The notes under the pieces: generated by a model | Seen by the model: only the letters and a program-made list of their open reading frames with translations | The model's database searches: none | Told to the model about the DNA's origin: nothing | Made by a program: the position numbers and the translations under genes | Shown: in pieces, positions 4,286 to 31,812 of the stretch | Layout of the letters: each line of letters begins with the position of its first letter | How positions within the stretch are numbered: the first letter of the stretch is position 1 | NCBI RefSeq assembly: GCF_900086705.1 | Contig: NZ_LT575483.1 | Coordinates: 1,166-65,165, forward strand | Reading direction: 5' to 3' | DNA: 64,000 nt | DNA from: Massilibacillus massiliensis | Lineage (GTDB): Bacteria > Bacillota > Negativicutes > FLKF01

Positions 4286-4310
4286 GTTGATAAGTTAATA
4301 ATTGAATTTT

Positions 4311-4597
4311 CGATGATTAGGAGTAGTACTCATAGAAAGATGGTTATAGCGAACTGATGATGGTGGGAGATCAGTACAAATCATTATGAGGAATGGACCT
4401 AAGAGATATAGTCCGATCCGTAGCAAACGGGGTAGGCGCTATCGGAGCTTTCCACCGTTATCTAGGAAACGAATATCAGGCATATTAATTGTACTGTCTT
4501 GTATTTTGACTGAGTTGGACTTATTATAGTCAGCAAGGGTGGTACCGCGGGTGTATGTATAACCTCTCGTCCCTTTTTATAGGGATGAGAGGTTTTT
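4311..4597 (+). promoter_or_regulatory. T-box leader, tRNA-Trp specifier (UGG)
   Basis: The stem I base TTAGG (4317-4321) pairs with CCTAA (4398-4402), and CTCATA (4329-4334) pairs with TATGAG (4385-4390). They enclose an internal loop with AGTA on the 5' side and GAATGGA on the 3' side; the codon-position triplet is TGG (4394-4396) followed by the usual purine. The distal AGCGA/GATGGTGGGAG elements lie at 4348-4371. The T-box AAGGGTGGTACCGCGG is at 4535-4550, and the terminator stem AACCTCTC...GAGAGGTT plus T run ends near 4597. Uncharged tRNA-Trp should favour antitermination and expression of the transporter below. The tRNA-contact tetrad is UGGU, which fits discriminator A best, or G by wobble. 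Confidence 0.9.
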
Positions 4598-19634: not shown

Positions 19635-19654
19635 TTATTCTAATATTAAATAAA

Positions 19655-19897
19655 TGCGATGAATAGGATAAGTAAATTTGTATTACTTTTTAGAGAGCTA
19701 TGGGTGGGTGCAACATAGTAGGTATGCAGATTGAAATACCCCGATGAGCAGTAGACTGAAAAATTTGGAGTTTAGTAGGTTGATACCGGATGGCTGCCGT
19801 TATAAGCTGCAAAGTTTTATTTGTGTGTAACAAATATTAATTTGGGTGGTACCACGGGTTAATTGTAGCTCGTCCCTATTTGAGGGACGAGTTTTTT
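19655..19897 (+). promoter_or_regulatory. T-box leader, tRNA-Tyr specifier (UAC)
   Basis: Stem I helix AATTTGTAT (19675-19683) pairs with ATGCAGATT (19724-19732). The loop after it reads GAAATACC, with TAC at 19737-19739. The distal elements are at about 19691-19719. The T-box core GGGTGGTACCACGG is near 19844-19857, followed by the terminator CTCGTCCCT...AGGGACGAG (19869-19891) and a T run. The leader fills the 420-base gap before tyrS. Confidence 0.93.
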
Positions 19898-29423: not shown

Positions 29424-30002
29424 ATGATAAAGAAAGAATTACGCAAAAAAATTTTGAAGATCCGACGGAGCTTGGGAGAGTCTGTGATAAGAGAAGAAAG
29501 TGATGCAATTTTGGAGCATTTGCTATACAGTCCATTGGTTGAAGATGCAAAAGTTATTATGTGCTATTTAGCGATGGAGGATGAAGTACAGCTAATGAAC
29601 TTCATTGCGTATGCATTGCAAAAGGGTAAGTCAATTTGCGTTCCGCATATAAGAGATAAGGCTGGGCTTATGGATGCAGTTAAGATTGAAAATTTAGATA
29701 AACTTGTTTCTGGCGAGTTTGGAATTTTAACTGTGGATAATCCAGATATAAATATAATGCAGCCTGATGAAATAGATTTGGTCATTGTACCGGGGGTTGC
29801 TTTTGATAAACAGGGGCATCGTTTAGGTATGGGAGCCGGATTCTACGATCGGTTTTTATTAAATGCCGATCAAGCTGATTTTGTAGGAGTTGCGCTTTCT
29901 TGTCAAATTGTCGATTTTGTGCCTTCTATGGTGCATGATTGTTTAGTTGATTATATTATTACCAAAGATGGAATTATAAATTGTAAAACAGGCAAAATGT
30001 AG
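29424..30002 (+). CDS. 5-formyltetrahydrofolate cyclo-ligase
   Basis: Converts 5-formyl-THF to 5,10-methenyl-THF with ATP. 192 residues. Motifs: N-terminal KKELRKKILKIRRSL, substrate-side MCYLAMEDEVQL, VPHIRDK, and the signature VPGVAFDKQGHRLGMGAGFYDRF split by one turn. Begins 9 bases after yajC. The last codons form one arm of a 20-bp dyad, so the mRNA end is built into the gene. Confidence 0.95.
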   Translation: MIKKELRKKILKIRRSLGESVIREESDAILEHLLYSPLVEDAKVIMCYLAMEDEVQLMNFIAYALQKGKSICVPHIRDKAGLMDAVKIENLDKLVSGEFGILTVDNPDINIMQPDEIDLVIVPGVAFDKQGHRLGMGAGFYDRFLLNADQADFVGVALSCQIVDFVPSMVHDCLVDYIITKDGIINCKTGKM

Positions 30003-30030
30003 CTTAGCTGCATTTTGCCTGTTTTACAAT
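29980..30030 (+). terminator. 20-bp perfect stem across the stop codon
   Basis: Positions 29980-29999 and 30011-30030 are exact inverted complements (20 bp; ends ATTGTAAAAC and GTTTTACAAT) around an 11-base loop. It includes the last codons of the cyclo-ligase gene. There is no T tract after it, so it may act as an RNA stability or processing element between the two genes as well as, or instead of, a terminator. Confidence 0.6.
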
Positions 30031-30048: not shown

Positions 30049-30753
30049 ATGGAAATTAAAATTGGAGTAGCAAAGACGATGAAATATGCTGTTTCTTATT
30101 CCGGTGACAGTGTGGAATTCTCCGAGCGGCCACATGGTGGAATCTCTGTTATTTTAGCGGACGGCCAAGGTAGCGGGAGAGCCGGCAGAAATACGAGTAG
30201 TTTAGTTGTAAACAAAGCAGCATCGCTCATTGCTGACGGTACACGTGATGGTGCTGTGGCACGTGCAGTACACGATTATCTGTATGCAGTAAAAAATGGG
30301 CAGGTATCTTGTACGCTCACAGTTTTTAGTGCAGATTTTGAAACGGATACAGTTGTAATTAGTCGAAATTCTAATTGTCCGGCTATTGTGAAGACTTTGG
30401 ATTATACCGTTGTTTATGATGAGGAAATTAATCCAATCGGCGTACATCGACGTATGAAACCTCTAATTTATGAAGTACCGTTAGAATATGGAATGATTTT
30501 AGTTTCATATTCAGACGGTATTCAGGCTGCAGGAAGAAAACGTGGAAAAGAATTTGATTTTAAGCGTATATTAAAAATAATTGAAGAAAATACTGTTGAT
30601 GATACAGAATTTATCGCAGACAGTATTCTCGAATATGCTTTATCTTTAGATGATAATAGACCAGGAGATGATATGACTGTTGTTGTAATGGGTGTGAGCA
30701 ATAAAGAATATACAAATGAAATACGACGTGTTCATATTTCTTTTCCATATTAG
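30049..30753 (+). CDS. SpoIIE-like PP2C family phosphatase
   Basis: A stand-alone phosphatase domain, 234 residues, without membrane or sensor part. Metal-binding acids fit the PP2C/SpoIIE pattern: ILADGQGSG (Asp38-Gly39), LVSYSDGIQAAG near 155, and RPGDDMTVVVM near 213. It probably dephosphorylates a serine/threonine phosphoprotein such as an anti-sigma antagonist, but no such partner is seen here. Start ATG 30049 after TTAGGAG. It forms a tight group with the P-loop and HD genes. Confidence 0.85.
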   Translation: MEIKIGVAKTMKYAVSYSGDSVEFSERPHGGISVILADGQGSGRAGRNTSSLVVNKAASLIADGTRDGAVARAVHDYLYAVKNGQVSCTLTVFSADFETDTVVISRNSNCPAIVKTLDYTVVYDEEINPIGVHRRMKPLIYEVPLEYGMILVSYSDGIQAAGRKRGKEFDFKRILKIIEENTVDDTEFIADSILEYALSLDDNRPGDDMTVVVMGVSNKEYTNEIRRVHISFPY

Positions 30754-30765
30754 AAGGTGAGAGCT

Positions 30766-31149
30766 ATGCGAGTTGCAATTGTTGGTGTATGTGCAGCAGG
30801 GAAAACTACGTTAGTCGAAGGTTTAAAAGAAGCTGGGTTTGACGCTTATAATGTAGCGCAGGAACATTCTTGCATTAAAAAATTTTGGAATAGAAAAATT
30901 CCGGAATTGCTCATTATGATAGATGCAACACTTCCAGCAATAAAAAAGCGTCGGTTCGTTACTTGGGATGAAAGTCGGTTGAAGGTACAACATGAGCGGT
31001 TGCGTGATGCAAGAGCAAATGCTGACTTATATATTCAGACAGACTTTCTAAGTAAAGAAGAGGTACTCCAAATCGCGATAAATTTCATTAGGGGGAAAAG
31101 TAATGTCAGAAGTAACAATAGAGGATTTACGGAAAGATCACGAAATTAG
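30766..31149 (+). CDS. Small P-loop NTPase of unknown function
   Basis: About 127 residues. Walker A GVCAAGKTT at 7-15 right after the first beta strand MRVAIV, resembling a small nucleotide kinase core. A possible second-strand aspartate is in LLIMIDATLPAIKKRR; no classic lid is present. It is shorter than known kinases. GTG 30757 opens the frame, but GAAGGTGAG suits ATG 30766. The HD gene starts inside its last 47 bases. Substrate unknown. Confidence 0.75.
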   Translation: MRVAIVGVCAAGKTTLVEGLKEAGFDAYNVAQEHSCIKKFWNRKIPELLIMIDATLPAIKKRRFVTWDESRLKVQHERLRDARANADLYIQTDFLSKEEVLQIAINFIRGKSNVRSNNRGFTERSRN

Positions 31150-31768
31150 TGTGTATTTAGAATGCAGTACAAAGTATCTTGGTGAACTTGGTTTTACGGA
31201 ACATGGAAGACGACATGTGTCAATTGTCGCAAAACGCGCTAGAGAGATATTAGAATTATTGGATTATACACAAAGAGACTGTGAACTTGCTGAGATGGCT
31301 GGATACCTACATGATATCGCAAATCTTGTAAACCGTTTTAATCATGGTGGGATGGGTGCAATGATGGCATATAATATATTGACACGTCTCCGCATGCAGC
31401 CGGAAGAAATTGCGCTTGTAATTTCGGCAATCGGTAATCATGAGGAAGAGCGTGGTAATGCAGTCAATCATGTTGCGTCTGCTTTGATTTTAGCTGATAA
31501 ATCAGATGTTCATCGCACGCGTGTTACGAATACGGATTTTGCTACATTTGAAATTCATGATAGAGTAAATTTCGCTGCTGAAAGTTCAGTTATAAAAGTA
31601 GATGCAGAAAATCGCACGATAAAGTTAATCTTAACTATTAATACAAAAATTTGTCCGGTTATGGAATATTTTGAAATTTTTTTAGAACGCATGATTATGT
31701 GTCGGAGAGCGGCAGCTTTTTTAAAGTGTAGATTTGGGTTAGTGATCAATGGAAATGAATTGTTATAA
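31103..31768 (+). CDS. HD-domain phosphohydrolase
   Basis: 221 residues. HD metal ligands are in order: His38 (HGRRHVS), His70-Asp71 (GYLHDIAN), His81 and His113 (GNHEEERGN), Asp132 (LADKSDVHRTR). This is the five- or six-ligand arrangement of HD hydrolases acting on nucleotides or cyclic nucleotides. The N-terminal 30 residues and C-terminal 70 are not recognised. ATG 31103 follows AGGGGG and overlaps the P-loop gene, so the two are coupled. Confidence 0.85.
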   Translation: MSEVTIEDLRKDHEISVYLECSTKYLGELGFTEHGRRHVSIVAKRAREILELLDYTQRDCELAEMAGYLHDIANLVNRFNHGGMGAMMAYNILTRLRMQPEEIALVISAIGNHEEERGNAVNHVASALILADKSDVHRTRVTNTDFATFEIHDRVNFAAESSVIKVDAENRTIKLILTINTKICPVMEYFEIFLERMIMCRRAAAFLKCRFGLVINGNELL

Positions 31769-31782
31769 TTTTTAACCATCAA

Positions 31783-31812
31783 TTGACATAATCACAAGTG
31801 GGCGACTATAAT
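31783..31812 (+). promoter_or_regulatory. Promoter of secD-secF
   Basis: TTGACA (31783-31788), 18-base spacer, TATAAT (31807-31812), 45 bases before secD. Confidence 0.8.

Follow-up and report, generated by a model that had tools for sequence, protein, structure and literature searches.

A gene for a single-domain PPM phosphatase (PPM) and the gene of a small P-loop protein (PLP) directly behind it make up what, on the evidence of genome comparisons, is almost certainly a near-obligate pair, with a conserved order far beyond chance that extends over two phyla. The pair was analyzed in a 64,000-nt stretch of the Massilibacillus massiliensis genome (hereafter, the window; contig NZ_LT575483.1, positions 1166 to 65,165 of the forward strand), where it is followed by a gene for an HD-domain hydrolase (HD). 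In the genome scans, a Massilibacillus MAG was the closest named relative of this Negativicutes DNA. The original prediction for this region had proposed the three genes as one candidate signalling unit; the pair retained this status in our comparisons, while HD was found to be a separate neighbour.

Gene Organization of the Locus

The gene order in the window is ruvB, queH, spoIID, queA, tgt, yajC, 5-FCL, PPM, PLP, HD, secD, secF, recJ, and relA, in which the neighbours outside the profile-searched proteins carry the names that we presume from a reading of their protein sequences. The features considered here are as follows:

29980..30030, no strand assigned: hairpin with a 24-bp stem and a 3-nt loop, overlapping the 5-FCL stop codon (MFE -35.2 kcal/mol, z -9.2)
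30049..30753, + strand: PPM phosphatase, 234 aa (open reading frame; PF07228)
30766..31149, + strand: PLP, small P-loop protein, 127 aa (alignments and hhalign to shikimate kinase)
31103..31768, + strand: HD-domain putative metal hydrolase, 221 aa (PF01966), a frequent, non-obligate neighbour
31783..31812, + strand: sigma-70 consensus promoter TTGACA-18-TATAAT in the gap between HD and secD (12/12 consensus matches)

PPM, PLP, and HD form one tight run bounded by the 5-FCL hairpin and the secD promoter and, as had been predicted, the genes overlap or nearly touch: 12 bp separate the PPM stop codon from the PLP start, and HD begins inside PLP with an overlap of 47 bp. The start of PLP is likely the ATG at 30766, situated behind the Shine-Dalgarno-like AAGGTGAG, rather than the GTG at 30757. 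Judging by its folding signal, the hairpin at 29980–30030 is a putative terminator-like upstream border of the trio, and the promoter at 31783–31812, given its consensus match, is the predicted downstream border; the hexamers and spacing of this promoter were unchanged in six of the eight relatives checked. A hairpin with a conserved GGCAAAATGTA core was found in many Negativicutes, some of them pair-less, and since it also follows 5-FCL in several pair-less genomes, it belongs to the 3′ end of 5-FCL and lies outside the pair. For the same reason, a role as a pair-specific attenuator was rejected. Additionally, two T-box leaders (Rfam RF00230) were identified in the window, at 4304–4577 and 19650–19880.

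Characteristics of the Phosphatase

PPM matched PF07228 with 74.7 bits (cut-off 25) over residues 29–215, and this SpoIIE/PPM domain is its sole domain, with any regulatory or membrane segment absent, in accordance with the bare SpoIIE-like phosphatase originally described. The putative metal ligands are D20, D38-G39, D156, and D207, where D207 would be the ligand rather than D208, as suggested by the D-N/D motif that is usual in PPM phosphatases. D38, D156, and D207 are present and conserved, and they aligned to D628, D746, and D795, the metal ligands of SpoIIE (PMC3517971, PMC5468089). The TIGR02865 model (Stage II sporulation protein E) gave 74.4 bits against an equivalog score of 490.8 and covered model positions 551–761 only; with a score below the equivalog level and the N-terminal membrane and regulatory domains absent, PPM is not a full-length SpoIIE. 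A distinct SpoIIE-like protein (833-codon frame) is encoded elsewhere in the M. massiliensis genome.

Like the SpoIIE phosphatase domain (PF07228; B. subtilis SpoIIE, RsbU), with which it shares the PPM fold and the metal Asp residues, PPM is likely a Ser/Thr phosphatase with alpha1–alpha2 switch helices. In contrast to SpoIIE, it has no membrane or dimerising regulatory domain, it has PLP as a partner, it bears an RDGA motif in the switch region, and it is retained in Chloroflexota and in families where full-length SpoIIE was not found. For instance, a search for full-length SpoIIE in two pair-bearing Selenomonadaceae genomes (G010 and G038) found none. That the pair is kept in Chloroflexota and in Selenomonadaceae in which full-length SpoIIE was not found makes a sporulation-specific role unlikely. 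RsbX, the bare PPM phosphatase of the stressosome, is also a single-domain protein of similar size; however, its sequence match to PPM is weak (E 0.0014), and its partners are STAS proteins, whereas that of PPM is a P-loop protein.

The closest solved relative of PPM is 3pu9 from Sphaerobacter thermophilus (E 5e-63), the structure of the orthologue Sthe_0969, to which the N-terminal stretch of a Sphaerobacter pair phosphatase (L167) is identical where aligned. This structure was solved without the PLP partner and is cited as an M2-metal-containing structure in a study of SpoIIE (PMC5468089). In our literature search, no functional study turned up for 3PU9, Sthe_0969, COG2316, or the two genes as a pair.

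Characteristics of the Small P-Loop Protein

The motifs of PLP comprise a Walker A sequence (GVCAAGKTT), QEHS, R62-R63, and W67; G7, G12, K13, and T15 are invariant, as are E33-H34-S35 beside the nucleotide site. The protein passed no family cut-off in Pfam or NCBIfam, which agrees with its earlier description as a tiny P-loop protein of no known family. The weak matches that PLP members gave in these collections fell mainly on P-loop proteins, including nucleotide kinases and shikimate kinases, with SKI (PF01202) outside the 25 most-matched Pfam families. In a single profile–profile comparison (hhalign), PLP and shikimate kinases of the same class were aligned across 111 columns (P 97%); roughly 46 residues, covering the substrate domain and the Walker B strand of shikimate kinase, fell in a single gap on the PLP side. 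The Walker A motif, the invariant E-H-S, and the two arginines recur across the 61 aligned PLP members, which also share a C-terminal segment of the kind seen in small-molecule kinases; none of the 61 has the DxD motif, the Walker B strand, or the substrate-binding domain of shikimate kinase. When compared to shikimate kinase (PF01202) and related P-loop kinases, PLP has Walker A and a C-terminal half that, by hhalign, appears collinear end to end, and differs in these missing parts and in the QEHS motif that replaces DxD.

From these alignments, PLP appears to be a nucleotide-binding protein reduced to a minimal kinase fold. The lack of a substrate domain and Walker B strand probably prevents it from acting as an ordinary small-molecule kinase. 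An assignment to TsaE/UbK was rejected because only the Walker A segment aligned (24 columns, hhalign), and one to the small GTPases (Ras/Era-like) was rejected because the N/TKxD guanine motif is absent from the alignment consensus and the rows shown. The earlier statement that no kinase is adjacent to the phosphatase became doubtful, since PLP is itself kinase-like according to hhalign.

Conservation of the Pair across Genomes

Among 60 relatives, PLP was present in 20 genomes, and a close relative of PPM was present in those same 20; in all 19 loci fetched from relatives, PPM was situated directly 5′ of PLP inside a conserved block. The survey of 300 genomes of the class gave the same arrangement, with PLP in 68 genomes and PPM directly upstream on the same strand in 68/68, at a distance of 12–260 bp between the two matches. 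No genome of the 300 carried PLP only, while PPM without PLP was found in eight, two of which were broken or ended by a contig edge. Likewise, PPM was upstream of PLP in 55/55 cases in the Selenomonadaceae-type family. In pair-less genomes, 5-FCL, HD, and secD stayed in place, indicating that PPM and PLP had left together. An in-frame PPM–PLP fusion was identified in a Selenomonas bovis MAG (L139, 6290–7366), where comparison with the type strain shows that a deletion of 29 bp created it; as it comes from a single MAG, it is weak evidence for the pairing.

When named genomes beyond the class were scanned, PLP was detected in members of Clostridia and of Chloroflexota (Sphaerobacter, Thermomicrobiales, and Anaerolineae), nearly always behind PPM. 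The gene secD was nearby in 10 of the 23 loci outside the class, and the Thermomicrobia loci had no secD nearby. The pair was found near secDF in Negativicutes, Clostridia, and two Chloroflexota loci, so that the location near secretion genes noted in the original prediction is an old one, although other loci carry the pair with no sec genes nearby. Three Chloroflexota genomes had PPM and PLP apart, and this splitting was rejected as an argument against pairing because both genes were present in the same genome in all three. Of 158 genomes of Chloroflexia, to which Sphaerobacter belongs, 73 carried PLP, and PPM was just upstream in 23 of the 30 loci fetched, the other seven consisting of two of the split cases already counted and five outside the co-presence count. 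In the Chloroflexia loci L295, L296, and L305, PLP is extended at its N-terminus and PPM is missing from the 1.5 kb upstream; in L295 and L296, PLP is located just before mutL.

Partner Loss, Phosphatase Decay, and Gly68

In the Selenomonadaceae, as delimited by named members, 20 genomes had PPM without PLP, and 17 of these phosphatases were full length. A metal Asp was lost in 15 of the 17, compared with one of 104 readable pair loci. The substitutions in the PLP-less phosphatases differed by genus (D156N with D207G; D38A with D207E; D156E with D207E; D38S with D207A/T; D38E), and the two that kept all metal ligands were those of loci L195 and L271. The space before secD was 13–184 bp in 16 of the 17 full-length cases. 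In PLP-less L195, PPM had been relocated behind secF with its metal ligands intact. To account for the pattern on a SecD tree, PLP must have been lost five times or more and decay must have arisen three to five times, with all losses coming from one family and many from MAGs. The tree-based pair test gave 3:0 with two ties (p = 0.25), so the correlation between loss and decay is suggestive, short of formal significance. In nine genomes of one genus (g74; L192–L194 and L273–L278), an open, syntenic PPM carrying D156E and D207E was kept, for which reason a non-catalytic role may persist; D-to-E changes may also leave phosphatase activity possible.

Gly68, within the RDGA motif, was invariant in 131 pair phosphatases from two phyla; because some genomes are in both collections, neither these 131 nor the 104 readable loci are all independent. 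In the PLP-less lineages, this residue, picked post hoc among 34 conserved positions, was replaced by D, E, or S in 7/7, including both lineages with intact ligands. Conserved positions in the switch region (residues 40–88) were changed in 2.7 lineages on average versus 1.0 elsewhere. Gly68 lies in the region of PPM that matches the SpoIIE switch residues 630–678, which form the two helices repositioned by the regulatory domain when SpoIIE is activated (PMC5468089).

A Possible Two-Protein Switch

A bare PPM has no regulatory part of its own and so needs another input. A tentative proposal, in which we place slightly less than even confidence, is that PPM and PLP form a two-protein switch in which PLP docks on PPM in a nucleotide-dependent manner. 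PLP would hold a nucleotide whose state sets its docking on the two switch helices of PPM, the surface used by SpoIIE's own regulatory domain, and docking would turn the dephosphorylation of a candidate phosphoprotein on or off, with HD as a separate activity usually encoded in the same gene run. The sequences themselves show that the genes are paired, that the P-loop and the metal ligands are conserved, that catalytic residues decay once PLP is lost, and that Gly68 goes with PLP; docking as a physical contact, control by a nucleotide, and a protein as the target are what we infer. A docking, nucleotide-gated PLP is favoured by the retained nucleotide site, the loss of what a small-molecule kinase needs, and the Gly68 pattern taken together. 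Between the two targets offered by the original prediction, a nucleotide signal or a phosphoprotein, control of a phosphoprotein is the one that the sequences would favour for the pair; a nucleotide signal would be linked to HD only. A broader and more doubtful version would make PLP a regulatory subunit acting in trans on PPM through the switch helices in both Bacillota and Chloroflexota, with PLP loss leaving a retained pseudophosphatase.

Regarding the alternatives, PrkC and PrpC are an opposing kinase and phosphatase, and HPr kinase provides a P-loop comparison. By analogy, PLP could be an opposing protein kinase that phosphorylates the target dephosphorylated by PPM, a P-loop enzyme in place of the Hanks kinase, a reading that we consider unlikely and still a serious rival. 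The order of phosphatase gene and closely following partner resembles that of prpC and prkC, PLP resembles a kinase superfamily, and PLP was never seen without PPM in the class or Selenomonadaceae-type surveys. Loss of the kinase would leave phosphatase catalysis useless, which matches the decay observed, and P-loop protein kinases such as UbK exist (PMC6733980). On the other hand, PLP has neither a Walker B strand nor a substrate-binding region, and it differs from PrkC in having no Hanks-kinase domain match (Pfam, NCBIfam) and no sensor or membrane part. The Gly68 coupling suggests contact beyond a merely shared target, and a third gene constant enough to encode such a target was not found.

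The lesser rival, which we regard as improbable, is that PLP is itself the substrate, with the invariant Ser35 of QEHS as one possible phosphorylation site, and that PPM resets it as RsbX resets the stressosome. The obligate pairing, the RsbX-like size of the bare phosphatase, and the position of the invariant E33-H34-S35 next to the nucleotide site are compatible with this, and decay after PLP loss fits a substrate or an opposing kinase as well as it fits a docking partner. However, phosphorylation of PLP is hypothetical, and Ser35 may be just catalytic or structural. Moreover, the substrate contacts of SpoIIE and RsbU include the flap and variable loops besides the switch (PMC11418112).

Distribution of the HD Hydrolase

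HD matched PF01966 with 25.7 bits (cut-off 22), and H38, H70-D71, H81, H113, and D132 were invariant in 16 orthologues, which bears out the full set of metal ligands described for it. It was found in 65 of the 300 class genomes, 27 with PLP and 38 without, and was missing from 41 of the 68 pair genomes. In 26 of the 27 genomes with both, HD directly followed PLP, and all three genes also occurred together in Clostridia MAGs. Our neighbour survey found the order and overlaps kept in every examined relative with all three genes, and no scattering was seen among these. In most of the PLP-less genomes examined, HD was situated between 5-FCL and secD, while in some more distant families, it was located away from secD. 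Its sequence was equally well conserved with or without the pair.

The shared strand, the overlap with PLP, and this adjacency could point to all three genes signalling together, HD breaking down a nucleotide that PPM and PLP produce or sense. We consider this very unlikely, given that HD is gained and lost independently of the pair and is equally conserved in its absence, usually still beside secD; HD is thus a separate conserved neighbour, and the trio was rejected as an obligate unit. Finally, a merely frozen gene order of the yajC–secDF region without functional pairing is hardly credible, because, although Negativicutes conserve the entire block from ruvB to secF, PPM and PLP were lost together with the rest of the block intact, they co-occur when split and in Chloroflexota away from sec genes, and the loss of one gene was followed by decay of the other.

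Implications for SpoIIE-Type Phosphatases

Phosphatases of the SpoIIE type are widespread and mostly governed by attached domains, and the control of bare ones is mostly unexplained. For such a bare phosphatase, the pair offers a specific candidate partner, with Gly68 as the residue where docking may occur and 3pu9 as the structure of an orthologue. If the two-protein switch is correct, PPM would be controlled in trans by a nucleotide-binding P-loop protein, a form of control absent from the literature that we found, and the pair may likewise provide a lead to the function of an unnamed P-loop family present in at least two phyla.
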